Assembly: GCA_017550655.1 (NCBI GenBank)
Contig: JAFZOK010000024.1
Span: forward strand, 62,001 to 126,000
Source of the DNA: Bacteroidales bacterium
Lineage (GTDB): Bacteria > Bacteroidota > Bacteroidia > Bacteroidales > UBA932
Direction of reading: 5' to 3'
DNA: 64,000 nt
The position numbers were made by a program, and so were the translations under genes. Shown here piece after piece: positions 3,100 through 7,970 of this stretch (its first letter is position 1; every line of letters starts with the position of its first letter). The notes beneath the pieces were generated by a model. That model had not been told where the DNA came from. It made no database searches and saw only the letters and a program-made list of their open reading frames with translations.

Positions 3100-4308
3100 A
3101 TGAAAAGGTTGTTTTTATTTTCAGCGATGGTTTTGTCCTGCGCCCTCTGCCTTGCACAGAACAAGACTTCTTATGCCGGGATATATTACTATGACTCATC
3201 CTCTTACGGGGTGATGGACCGCGACTCGGCAGACTATTACAGGGTTGTTGAAAACAACAACACTTTCAATGACTATTACGCCAAGGACAATGCCTTGAGG
3301 GCAAGCGGAGCTCTTTCATACGCAGACCCTTCCGATGACAGCAAGACGGTTTTTGAAGGTGCTTTCATAGCCTATTACCCTTCCGGAAAGGTTTGGATCA
3401 AGCAGTTCTTCAAGGGCGGAATCAACGACGGGGAATACACCGAGTATTTCGAGAACGGCCTGATGAAGCAGCACGAGTTCTACAAGATGGGAGTGCTGGA
3501 CGGCGTAAAGACCGTGTTTGAGGAGGACGGCAAGACCTGCAAGCAGTGGGAGTACAAGGATGGAGAACTGGTCAACGACTATTACACGGAGAGTGGGGGA
3601 GGCTATTCCGTTGACTATAACTCCACTACCAAAGAACCTATTTGGAGGGACGTTACAACTTCAGACCTCAATGTAATCAAGGACAAGAAGGGCAACACAA
3701 TCCAGGCATACGCAATCAACGGGCTTTATGTTTCTCTGGATGTTGCCTACAGGCATTACTTCGGCAAGTATTACGTTCTGCAGCTTTACATTCAGAACAA
3801 CTCTCCGGAGGACGCTTATTTCACCTTTGACGACGTTTCCATTGACAGCCCGAACGGAAAGATCAAGTTCTTCTCCAAGAGCGATTTCGAAAGGCGTATG
3901 AGCAGCCGCCAGGGATGGGCCCAGTTCGGCCTTCAGGCAGCAAGCTTTGCTACGGCCATTACTCTTGAAGCTTTAACGGACGAGGCGTTCTACCGCCAGA
4001 ACAGAAGGCATCACCGCACGTTCGGAAGGGATCTGGCTCACGATATGTCCGCCTTCCTTATCCGCCAGAGCGCTGTTGTGGGAAGTGTTCTGGTATCAGG
4101 TCTTTTCAACGAGGAGAACATGAAGGTCAGAAACGAGAATATCGGCTATCTGAGAAACTACCAGATCAAGCCTCATTCTTCAATCACCGGCTTTGCCTAC
4201 GCCAAGTACAGCCCAAGCGCAAAGATGATAATGGTTAACCTTCCGATAAACGGCAAGATTTACCAGTTCCCGGTGGATGTGACTCATCTGAAGAATATCG
4301 ACAACTAG
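3100..4308 (+). CDS. Exported protein with MORN/YwqK-like repeats, function unknown
   Basis: A signal peptide ([20 protein letters not shown]) predicts export from the cytoplasm. Residues about 85-165 contain three or four repeats of the type [16 protein letters not shown] / [21 protein letters not shown], the MORN-like repeat of YwqK-family proteins. The C-terminal half carries no motif I recognise beyond a possible hydrophobic stretch near residue 270-285. It is probably a periplasmic or surface structural protein. Its stop codon shares the palindrome CTAG with the convergent copA stop, so the two genes overlap by 4 nt. Confidence 0.75.
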
Positions 4309-6323
4309 ATCTTTCTGAAATTCAGCAGCAGCGAGTTGCTAACCACGCAAACGCTGGAGGCTGCCATTGCCGCTCCTGCAATCATAGGATTAAGCAGAAA
4401 ACCGTTTACCGGGAACAGAACCCCGGCGGCTATCGGTATTGCAATCACATTATAGACAAATGCCCAGAAAAGGTTCATTTTAACGGTCTTCACCGTTTGG
4501 CGGGATAGTCTTATCGCTGAGGAAAGTTTCCTTAAATCAGAGCCCGTGAGGGTGATTTTTGCGGCATCCATCGCGATGTCGCTTCCGCTACTCATAGCGA
4601 TGCTCACATCCGCCCTTGCAAGCGCGGCGGAATCGTTGATTCCGTCTCCGGCCATAGCCACTACCTTGCCTTCCTCCTGAAGGGTGCGGATAAACTTTTC
4701 CTTGTCTTCAGGGAGCATTCCGGAACGGACTTCCCTGATGCCGCATTCCCTTGCAATAGCCTCGGACGTTCGGGAGTTGTCTCCGGATAGCATCACCACT
4801 TCTATGCCCAGATCCTGAAGTTCCCTGACGGCCTGCCTTGACATTTCTTTCACCTTGTCAGCCACAGCAATTACGGCAAGCACTTTCTCATTGTCCGCAA
4901 AATAAACAACAGTCTTTGCCTGTTCTTCAAATTCTTTTGCTTTCTCCGCGATGGCATCTGGAATCTCAATCCCCTCCCTTTTCATCAGCGACGGGTTTCC
5001 GGCAAGGAATCTTGCGCCTGATTCCGAGCAAATTGCTCCCATTCCCGGAATGTTTTCCACGTTGGATACGCTGCCGTTTGGAAAATGCTTTGCAATGGCT
5101 TCTGCTACCGGATGCTGTGACAGGGATTCCATACCTCCTAGTATGCTCCTTAGCAGTTGCTTGTGATGCGGTTCATATTCCCAGAATTCATCAGTGACTT
5201 CCGGGTGCCCGGTGGTTAGGGTACCTGTCTTGTCCAGTGCCAAAACGTTAATCTTCCGGGCATTTTCCATAGCCTCGGCATCCTTGATGAGTATGCCGTT
5301 CTGGGCTCCCTTGCCGATACCCACCATAATGGCGGTAGGGGTTGCAAGCCCGAGTGCGCACGGACAGGCGATAACCAGTACAGTTACCAGTGCAAGTATG
5401 GAGTGCACGATGTAGTTGTTCCCCGTTGCATAGCCGCAGACATTCCATACTATGAACGCTATCAGTGCGATGCACATTACTGCAGGAACAAAGATGGAAG
5501 CAATCTTGTCTGCGAGCTTCTGGCTAGGGGCCCGGCTTCCCTGGGCTTCCCGCACAAGATTAATAATCCTTGCAAGATTGGTCTCTGAGCCTACCTTTTC
5601 CGCTCTGAACATAAAGCTTCCCGTCTGGTTGACCGTTCCGGAAAAGACCTTGCTTCCGGCCTTTTTCTCCACAGGAACGCTCTCTCCGGTAAGGGAACTT
5701 TCATCCACAAAGGATTCTCCTTCCAAAACAGTTCCGTCCACGGCAATACTCTCTCCGGGCTTCACGATGACCATATCTCCAACCACCACATCCTCAATGT
5801 TAATAACTGCATACCCGGAAACGTTCCCGGTCTGTGTATATTCTGTAGACTGGGAGCAAAAACGCCCGAAATCGTTCCCGGTCTGCGTATTTCCTGCAGG
5901 CTGGGAACACTCATAGGAATTGCAGTGTTTGCGTTTGAGGATAGTTACCGTCTTCGGCTGGAGGCCTGCAAGTTTCTTGATCGCTGAGGAAGTGGAATAT
6001 TTTGCCCTTTCTTCCAGCAGCCTTCCAAGCAGAATGAAGGCGATGATTACGGCGGCAGACTCAAAGTACACGTGGCTTTCAAGTCCCCGGCTTGTCCATA
6101 CGGATGGAAACAGGGTGTTGAACACGCTGAAAATATATGCCACTCCGGTGGATAGGGCTATCAGCGTATCCATATTAGCATGGCCGTGCTTGGCCTGTTT
6201 CCAGGCATTTATGTAGAAATCCCGACCAAAGAATACTATGGAGATTGTGGCCAGGGTCCACATTATGATATTGGCGGTGTTTTGCGGCAAAAAGAAATCA
6301 CCGGAATGCCCCATTGAAGACAT
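4305..6323 (-). CDS. copA: Copper-exporting P1B-type ATPase, main body (N-terminal part in another frame)
   Basis: The diagnostic P1B ATPase motifs are present: actuator TGES, the transmembrane metal site CPC ([15 protein letters not shown]), phosphorylation site DKTGT, the HP motif in [11 protein letters not shown], and the hinge [11 protein letters not shown]. It should export Cu(I) across the inner membrane. The first ATG of this frame (6323) lies inside transmembrane helix 1; the frame stays open upstream to about 6405 and encodes the missing start of that helix. The metal-binding domain is in the adjacent frame (6353-6646), and the two meet at an A10 run. The actuator loop holds an extra Cys/Thr-rich insert of about 40 residues encoded by a palindromic repeat doublet (5822-5909). 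It could be a frameshifted gene, programmed frameshifting, or a homopolymer sequencing error. Confidence 0.9.
5822..5909. repeat. Palindromic repeat doublet (37-14-37 nt) inside copA
   Basis: Two 37-nt units (5822-5858 and 5873-5909) are separated by the 14-nt spacer aaaacgcccgaaat. Each unit is an imperfect palindrome; the second has GTTCCC/GGGAAC ends and an inner CTGC/GCAG. The 51-nt period is exactly 17 codons, so the copA frame is kept. The same 37-14-37 layout, with similar termini and a similar spacer, recurs at 28494-28581. It looks like a REP/BIME-type interspersed element. Confidence 0.75.
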
Positions 6324-6352
6324 TCCGATGATAACGATAGGGATGGCGACGA

Positions 6353-6646
6353 TTATCGCCCCAACAGTTTTGCTAAGAAGCCTTTTGACTTTTTTTTTTC
6401 GTCTTCACCGTCTGCTGCTCCTGATAGCGGAGTGGTATCCATATCATAGCCGGCGGCAACTACGGCTTCCCTGATTGTTTGGGGATTAATCTTTTCAGAG
6501 TCGTATTCTATGAGGGCGCTGTTGGACGCGAGGTTAACGTTCACGTCCTTCACCCCGTCAAGGCCTTCAATGGCTTTCCTGACGTGGGCGACGCACATAG
6601 CGCACATCATATTCTTGACCGCAAAACTCTGCTTTACCGTTCCCAT
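6353..6646 (-). CDS. HMA copper-binding domain protein (N-terminal part of CopA, or stand-alone chaperone)
   Basis: This 97-residue product is a ferredoxin-like heavy-metal-associated domain with the Cu(I) site MMCAMC near residues 14-19, ending in an Asp/Glu/Lys linker. It ends at TAA about 35 nt past a run of ten A residues. A -1 shift on that run joins it in frame to the first transmembrane helix of the downstream ATPase. In Escherichia coli, copA uses programmed frameshifting to make both a small chaperone, CopA(Z), and the full ATPase; the layout here could do the same. It starts 1 nt after the aldo/keto reductase gene on the same strand. Confidence 0.85.
6390..6399 (-). other. A10 slippery homopolymer joining the HMA and ATPase frames
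   Basis: On the coding strand, GAC G is followed by ten A residues and GTC. The A-run contains the A AAA AAA heptamer on which tandem -1 slippage is possible, and runs of this length also promote RNA polymerase slippage. One extra A, or a -1 shift, fuses the two parts of CopA. In the ATPase frame a TGA lies just upstream of the run, so the ATPase frame cannot begin farther back. Confidence 0.7.
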
Positions 6647-6647
6647 A

Positions 6648-7970
6648 TCAGAATTCGCTGCTGATTCTTTCCATCAGGTCTGTAATTGGCAGATGCTGAG
6701 GGCATTTTGCAAGGCACTCCTGGCAGCCTGTGCAGGTGTCAGGTCCGCCGCCCTTGGCAAATTCCTTGCGGAAAGCATTGGCGAACGCGGCCTTCTTCTT
6801 TGCGTATTCGCTTTCGCTCTGGGCTTCCTTGTTTGGAACGTTTCCGTCCATAACCAGCTTGTTGTAAGTTGCAAACACAGACGGAATCTCCACATCGAAC
6901 GGGCAAGGCATGCAGTAGCGGCAGGCGGTGCAGTTTATTCTCTTGTAGCTCTGGTATTCCAGGATGGCCTTCTGGAGGGTGGTCTGCTCGTCGAGAGTAA
7001 GAGGCTTGAAGTTGGTGTAGCTCTTGAGGTTATCCACAAGATGCTCCATATAGGTCATTCCGCTCAGCGATACCAGCACGTTTGGAAGGCTTCCAAGATA
7101 CCTAAAGGCCCAGGAAGCTATGCTGAGATCCGGATTCTTGTCCTTGAGGATCTTGTTTGCGCTGTCTGACAGGCTGGCGAGCCTTCCGCCCAGCAGAGGT
7201 TCCATAATCACGGCCGGAATCTTCCTTTCAGCCAGGGAGTTGTAAAGGTACTCGCCGTCTTCTTTCCAGTCTATGTAGTTGAGCTGGATCTGCACGAAAT
7301 CCCACGGATGCTTGTCAATGACATAGTCCCAGCAGGCACGGTCCGCATGGAAGGAGAAACCGAGGTTTTTGATTCTTCCCTTGCGTTTCTGCTCCGCCAG
7401 ATACTCATATCCGCCAAAATCCTCGTAAACCTTTTCGTAGCTGCTCTGCTTGGAGATGGAGTGCAGGAGATAATAGTCGAAGTAATCCACCCCGCACCTC
7501 TGGAGCTGCTCCTCGAAGATTCTCGGAATGTCCTCTTTGCTGTTGATTGCAAACGTAGGCATCTTGTCTGCAAGCAGCCAGGTGTTTCTCGGATATTTCT
7601 TGAGAGCGTTGCCTATTACGCCTTCGCTTTTTCCTCCGTGGTAAATGTATGCGGTGTCGTAGTAGTTGATGCCGTGAGCGTATGCATAGTCCACCAGTTC
7701 TTCTGCCTTAGGTACATCTATAGGAGCGGTTCTGCCTTTTCCGATAGTAGGGAATCTCATGCATCCAAAACCGAGCATGGAAACCATTTCTCCGTTCTTG
7801 TAGTTTATCCTTTTGTCAACAGGGGTGATGTCTCCGTCCAGGGCCTTGGCCTGGAGGTTGGTCAGGAACGGGTTGTTCTTGAAGGAAACGGTGCTGGCCG
7901 CCAGTGCGGCTGCTCCCAAGCCCATAAGTTTCAGAGCCTTTCTTCTGCTGATGTCTTTGTTGTCTTTCAT
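6648..7970 (-). CDS. Tat-exported aldo/keto reductase with C-terminal 4Fe-4S domain
   Basis: The N-terminus carries a twin-arginine signal (ISRRKALKLMGLG), followed by an aldo/keto reductase barrel (about residues 50-330; GFGCMRFP, YDTAYIYHGG). The C-terminus has a two-cluster ferredoxin domain with CTACRYCMPCP and CTGCQECLAKCP. Such proteins are probable NAD(P)H-linked oxidoreductases with iron-sulfur electron transfer; the substrate is unknown. The Tat signal suggests export in folded form to the periplasm. It is probably co-transcribed with the copper genes 1 nt downstream, though a functional link is only inferred. Confidence 0.9.
   Translation of the reverse strand: MKDNKDISRRKALKLMGLGAAALAASTVSFKNNPFLTNLQAKALDGDITPVDKRINYKNGEMVSMLGFGCMRFPTIGKGRTAPIDVPKAEELVDYAYAHGINYYDTAYIYHGGKSEGVIGNALKKYPRNTWLLADKMPTFAINSKEDIPRIFEEQLQRCGVDYFDYYLLHSISKQSSYEKVYEDFGGYEYLAEQKRKGRIKNLGFSFHADRACWDYVIDKHPWDFVQIQLNYIDWKEDGEYLYNSLAERKIPAVIMEPLLGGRLASLSDSANKILKDKNPDLSIASWAFRYLGSLPNVLVSLSGMTYMEHLVDNLKSYTNFKPLTLDEQTTLQKAILEYQSYKRINCTACRYCMPCPFDVEIPSVFATYNKLVMDGNVPNKEAQSESEYAKKKAAFANAFRKEFAKGGGPDTCTGCQECLAKCPQHLPITDLMERISSEF

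Follow-up and report, generated by a model that had tools for sequence, protein, structure and literature searches.

Sequence evidence for a probably recoded copA in Bacteroidales with a putative copper chaperone as the unshifted product and the pump as the shifted one

The window analyzed here is a 64,000-nucleotide stretch of a Bacteroidales genome. Its reverse strand carries an HMA open reading frame of 97 residues (6353..6646), listed as an ORF and taken as the 0 frame, and a CopA-type (P1B-1) Cu(+) ATPase in the -1 frame relative to it (4305..6389, stop included, same strand). At their junction lies the proposed slip site, a run of ten A residues (A10; 6390..6399, reverse strand) that is bordered by G on either side and is read in the 0 frame as GAA AAA AAA AAG, and both the A_AAA_AAA and the A_AAA_AAG heptamers are readable in that frame. 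The first-pass annotation had put the HMA stop about 35 nt past the ten A residues and joined the frames by a -1 shift. The letters bear this out: the 0-frame TAA (6355-6353) starts 34 nt past the end of the run, and the ATPase frame has no internal stop and stays open upstream across the run. Entry into the ATPase frame needs a -1 shift, or one additional nucleotide in the RNA, at the run. The reverse-strand overlap at 6353..6389 is dual-coded, holding the tail of the putative chaperone and its stop in the 0 frame and the ATPase N-terminus, leading into helix 1, in the -1 frame. Upstream of the HMA ORF and in the same direction lies a gene for an aldo/keto reductase with a 4Fe-4S domain (6648..7970, reverse strand). 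Its stop directly precedes the HMA ATG, and the layout suggests that this gene and copA may be carried on one transcript.

The 97-residue product, the proposed copper chaperone, scores as an HMA domain (PF00403, 66.9 bits against a cut-off of 24.8) and falls below the cut-offs of the CopZ and copper-ion-binding models (NF033794, 65.9 against 95; TIGR00003, 56.3 against 62). It carries an M-x-C-x-x-C motif (MMCAMC) followed by a Lys-rich basic tail. AlphaFold, run on an alignment of 16 chaperone homologs, predicts the ferredoxin-like HMA fold (beta-alpha-beta-beta-alpha-beta) with a pLDDT of about 97 over residues 11-70, and predicts the tail to be disordered (pLDDT below 60). An amphipathic helix was considered for the tail, where AlphaFold confidence is low. 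The ATPase lies well above the cut-off of the copper-translocating subfamily model (TIGR01511, 590.6 bits against 397), and its best PDB match is the copper efflux ATPase 3rfu (E 1.4e-160). CPC, DKTGTLT and C-terminal MxxSS are motifs of the P1B-1 copper-transporting ATPases (CopA), and all three are visible in its translation. A stretch of copA at 5816-5911 (reverse strand), lying between residues 152 and 194 of the ATPase query, resembles a dispersed repeat. It has five more matches in its own genome, of which one lies at C15:283598 and four form a cluster at C30:336083-336308, spaced about 51 bp from start to start, and many genus homologs lack the stretch, showing a gap at about query residues 152 to 194.

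How the ATPase frame is entered is central to the reading of this locus. The earlier claim that this frame has no good start that keeps helix 1 holds: in the window, no ATG, GTG or TTG occurs in the ATPase frame from its opening to 32 nt past the HMA stop, where the ATPase as a listed ORF begins. This first ATG of the frame (6321..6323, reverse strand; start at 6323) sits at the end of helix 1. If the locus were two separate genes, in which the HMA gene ends at its stop and reinitiation or coupling within the overlap starts the ATPase on its own, ATG 6323 would be a candidate start. All 17 genus homologs described below have it, at a plausible coupling distance from the stop, and a further ATG occurs at +20 in five of 16 genus loci. 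A start at ATG 6323 loses helix 1, however, and 42 of the 44 ordinary fused CopAs compared carry Met at the same position, which marks it as a family-wide residue rather than as evidence of a start. Across the interval that opens 60 nt ahead of the HMA stop and closes at +19, moreover, all 22 split loci of the two clades described below lack an ATG, GTG or TTG in the ATPase frame. Separate initiation also leaves unexplained both the conserved A-run and the intact, conserved helix 1 that precedes the Met, and we consider it quite improbable. Because no usual start codon lies near the junction and the first ATG encodes a family Met, the pump most likely arises from a frame transition.

We examined 39 genomes of the genus; the HMA query finds a match in 28 of them, and a close homolog is present in 17. 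The first-pass annotation had proposed searching relatives for the same split at an A-run, and this search came out in its favor: the split is kept, in the same direction, in 16 of the 17 homologs, and the run has at least nine A residues in all of them (A10 in 14, A11 in two and A9 in one). The 0-frame stop is at the identical place in all 16 split homologs, and the base that follows the run varies between G, T, C and another A. In L121, which has A11, the split is preserved since the third Lys codon is AAA, and both L121 and the A9 homolog L127 owe their kept frame to substitution rather than to an indel. The sole exception in the genus is G003 (locus L122, the same as L006 and L090), in which A11 gives one continuous frame and the neighboring frame retains an intact chaperone tail. 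Its A11 could be a real variant or a homopolymer error, both of which fit the assembly. The counter-evidence envisaged by the first-pass annotation, namely nine or eleven A residues or relatives with one frame and no A-run, did not appear within the clade, apart from this continuous A11 frame.

The first-pass annotation had also allowed that an error in the A-run, or a disabling mutation, would look the same. The assemblies are indeed draft and errors are commonest in homopolymers. The identical split nevertheless recurs in separate named assemblies, including some from the rumen or omasum of goat, yak and buffalo (seven of the eight close loci L002-L009, a set that overlaps with the genus set), as well as in a one-contig genome (G034/L125). 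Given these recurrences and the constraint on both frames described below, an assembly or sequencing error, or a recent disabling mutation, is very improbable.

Within the 2.26-Mb assembly, A10 occurs twice with both strands counted, and the second occurrence sits just past an ORF stop. Among the 18 distinct runs of at least nine A residues, the copA run alone joins two long frames (91 codons before it and about 500 after). Because A10 is rare, because this junction is unique among such runs and because the split is kept in the genus, the split of the copA frame at A10 is more than chance.

If both products are used, the DNA between the run and the stop should bear the marks of two reading frames. 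For 16 homologs in which the ATPase frame spans 280 codons or more (15 split homologs and G003/L122; L127, with only 145 codons, was dropped), we aligned this frame and counted changes by codon position with a Fitch test on a FastTree tree. Third positions of the ATPase frame changed on average 1.0 times in the 12 overlap codons versus 4.2 times in the other 451 columns. With Met and Trp columns excluded, third positions are unchanged in eight of 11 overlap codons and in none of 435 outside; a narrower nine-codon window, picked after inspection of the stop positions, gives seven of eight. The contrast persists among columns with an invariant residue, where all three in the overlap lack a third-position change versus none of 158 outside. 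In the HMA part upstream of the run, a hand count over 15 sequences (L127 and L122 dropped) found none of 73 such columns unchanged. The freeze stops at the chaperone stop codon, and the next ATPase codon has four changes. A third position of the ATPase frame is a second position in the chaperone frame, so these positions should freeze if the chaperone tail is selected. The Glu/Gln codon and the two Lys codons of the run retain A in each of 15 sequences, and Lys codons elsewhere in the HMA part are AAG 61 times and AAA 32 times. Judged from these substitution patterns, both frames between the run and the stop are under selection. A nucleotide signal in the overlap, rather than the protein tail, could conceivably cause the freezing; a shared RNA structure that could explain it was not found over the 17 junctions.

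The same constraint bears on phase variation, in which A10 would be a contingency locus, other run lengths would make the pump and the sequenced form would be mostly OFF. Homopolymer runs mutate readily, and G003 supplies an A11 form with a continuous frame. Against this, 22 of the 23 loci of the two clades are in the same frame, the lengths span only 9-11, the A11 of L121 and the A9 of L127 are compensated by substitution, and the 0-frame tail is itself under selection. We regard phase variation as quite unlikely, a little more so than separate initiation.

Outside the genus clade, none of 100 loci has a split copA, and all 100, each with a readable N-terminus, are in one frame by a lenient test, for which a CxxC anywhere in the N-terminal part of the ATPase's own ORF was enough. 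This count left out L034, L039, L053, L066, L096 and L100, which are cut by contig ends, and L102 and L135-L141, which gave no row. A class-level search (E cut-off 1e-8) matched 123 of 395 genomes and returned short frames at three places besides the window; those in G1138 and G1342 showed no split when the sequence was read, and the third is in G1299. Five further short-frame loci, among the matches listed, run off the contig or hit a stop after 242 codons and have no split at a run, and L292, also among the short-frame matches listed, has no motif.

An order-wide search (393 genomes, E cut-off 1e-12, 23 matched) uncovered two short frames in another family, f113, and a search of that family (200 genomes, 80 matched) added four more split loci. 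In all six loci of this second clade the A10 run is followed by G and a TAA or TAG stop, and the ATPase lies in the -1 frame. Their stop thus comes right after the run, whereas in the window it starts 34 nt past the run, behind a dual-coded tail. Gln at the run is CAA in all six, although CAG outnumbers CAA 72 to 11 elsewhere. The other f113 loci read in one frame in 22 of 22 cases (L247 and L256, of 24, gave no row). Each of the two split clades forms one branch in a 90-row ATPase tree, with support of 99 and 100, and the split label changes twice; a 39-row ATPase tree also separates the two clades. An AU test against a single joined clade gave a marginal rejection (p 0.043). Two independent origins of the split copA are, on these trees, likely but not certain. 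Over all 23 loci (17 from the genus and six from f113) the run is A10 in 20, A11 in two and A9 in one; the direction of the shift is the same in 22, and the heptamer A_AAA_AAA can be read in the 0 frame of each of the 22 split loci.

The gene is thus very probably a recoded copA, with an unshifted chaperone and a shifted pump. This programmed frame transition, proposed in the first-pass annotation, gains support from 16 of 17 genus homologs, from all six f113 loci and from the dual-coding constraint. Unshifted expression would yield the 97-residue copper chaperone, an HMA domain with a basic tail ended by the 0-frame stop. On some occasions, A10 would be misread by -1 by the ribosome or copied with one extra A by RNA polymerase, and the frame transition would yield the CopA pump with the same HMA domain at its N-terminus. 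In this way one gene would set how much chaperone is made relative to the pump. We infer from sequence the production of both proteins, their ratio and their function. No second HMA domain was found at E 0.001 in 11 of the 16 split genomes, assemblies of the genus being draft, mostly metagenomic and 73-96% complete, so that this does not prove a second chaperone to be missing; the other five have two to five. It is suggestive only that split genomes may depend on the recoded gene for their chaperone.

Which machine slips is a closer question. RNA polymerase slippage is favored because the run has at least nine A residues in 23 of 23 loci, because no conserved stimulator was found over the 17 junctions and because of the G003 case. 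Ribosomal -1 frameshifting is favored because the A_AAA_AAA and A_AAA_AAG heptamers are in frame and the direction is constant in 22 of 23 loci; constant direction among orthologs is treated as a sign of ribosomal frameshifting in a passage of PMC3711429. Bacterial slippage is described on runs of nine A or T in a passage of PMC5009743. RNAalifold on the 17 junctions gave three pairs, none covarying, and no conserved downstream stem-loop, pseudoknots being outside its model. The window's own junction RNA folds well (z -3.8). A 16-bp stem lies in the helix-1 region (window 6275-6345, reverse strand), about 57 nt past the run, and is not conserved over the 17 junctions. An upstream stimulator of the Shine-Dalgarno type is not expected, because Bacteroidia rarely use Shine-Dalgarno sequences (excerpts of PMC8710568). 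We lean slightly to RNA polymerase, which we give an even chance of being the slipping machine, over the ribosome, for which the case falls somewhat short of even; both may act.

Recoding of copA as such is already known. Programmed -1 ribosomal frameshifting in E. coli copA, producing CopA(Z), was reportedly described by Meydan et al. in 2017. The E. coli frameshift uses a pseudoknot and the nascent chain as stimulators, whereas here no conserved structure was found and the slip site is A10. In both systems a single copA yields, or here would yield, both an HMA chaperone and a P1B ATPase, the frameshift lying in the 5' part of copA. The polarity is reversed: the E. coli 0 frame encodes the pump and the -1 frame the chaperone, and here the 0 frame would encode the chaperone and the -1 frame the pump. 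Passages of PMC5009743 and PMC9548414 give the E. coli products as a 70-residue chaperone on -1 frameshifting and an 834-residue pump when no shift occurs.

The slip site itself resembles that of dnaX. Excerpts of PMC3711429 describe programmed transcriptional realignment at A-runs, both in Thermus thermophilus dnaX (A9) and in two-ORF dnaX genes with ten As. As here, an A9-A10 run that ends at a conserved place joins overlapping ORFs, and the unshifted product is shorter or frame-dependent (same excerpts). The dnaX case differs in being another gene, and in our loci the slip direction is nearly constant and polymerase slippage is only a candidate. In reporters, the same source has the shift rising with run length, from 10% at 7 As to 40% at 9 As and 63% at 11 As. 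It also presents a chelatase frameshift cluster that shares the poly-A run, the -1 direction and the metal-related gene with our loci, and that differs in being another protein family and in lacking the chaperone-plus-pump logic. The main text of PMC3711429 never mentions ATPase, copper or heavy metal. Our literature searches turned up no report of a split copA in Bacteroidales or of a reversed copA, and prior mention in Meydan et al. 2017 or Sharma et al. 2011 is possible. Put most fully, and held tentatively at somewhat less than an even chance, our proposal is that two Bacteroidales lineages independently made copA slip-dependent with reversed polarity, the chaperone being the default and the pump requiring a slip of RNA polymerase or the ribosome on A10, with a selected dual-coded tail in the first lineage.

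Genes of this kind are split or cut short by gene-finding programs, and annotations of the pump therefore probably lack its metal-binding domain. As naturally conserved A-runs, the loci could serve as a test case in which to tell ribosomal from transcriptional slippage in Bacteroidota. If the slip is made by RNA polymerase, the ratio of chaperone to pump would be fixed at transcription, in the mRNA itself. If the proposal is true, the coupling of chaperone and pump by recoding would have arisen more than once, with either product as the default.
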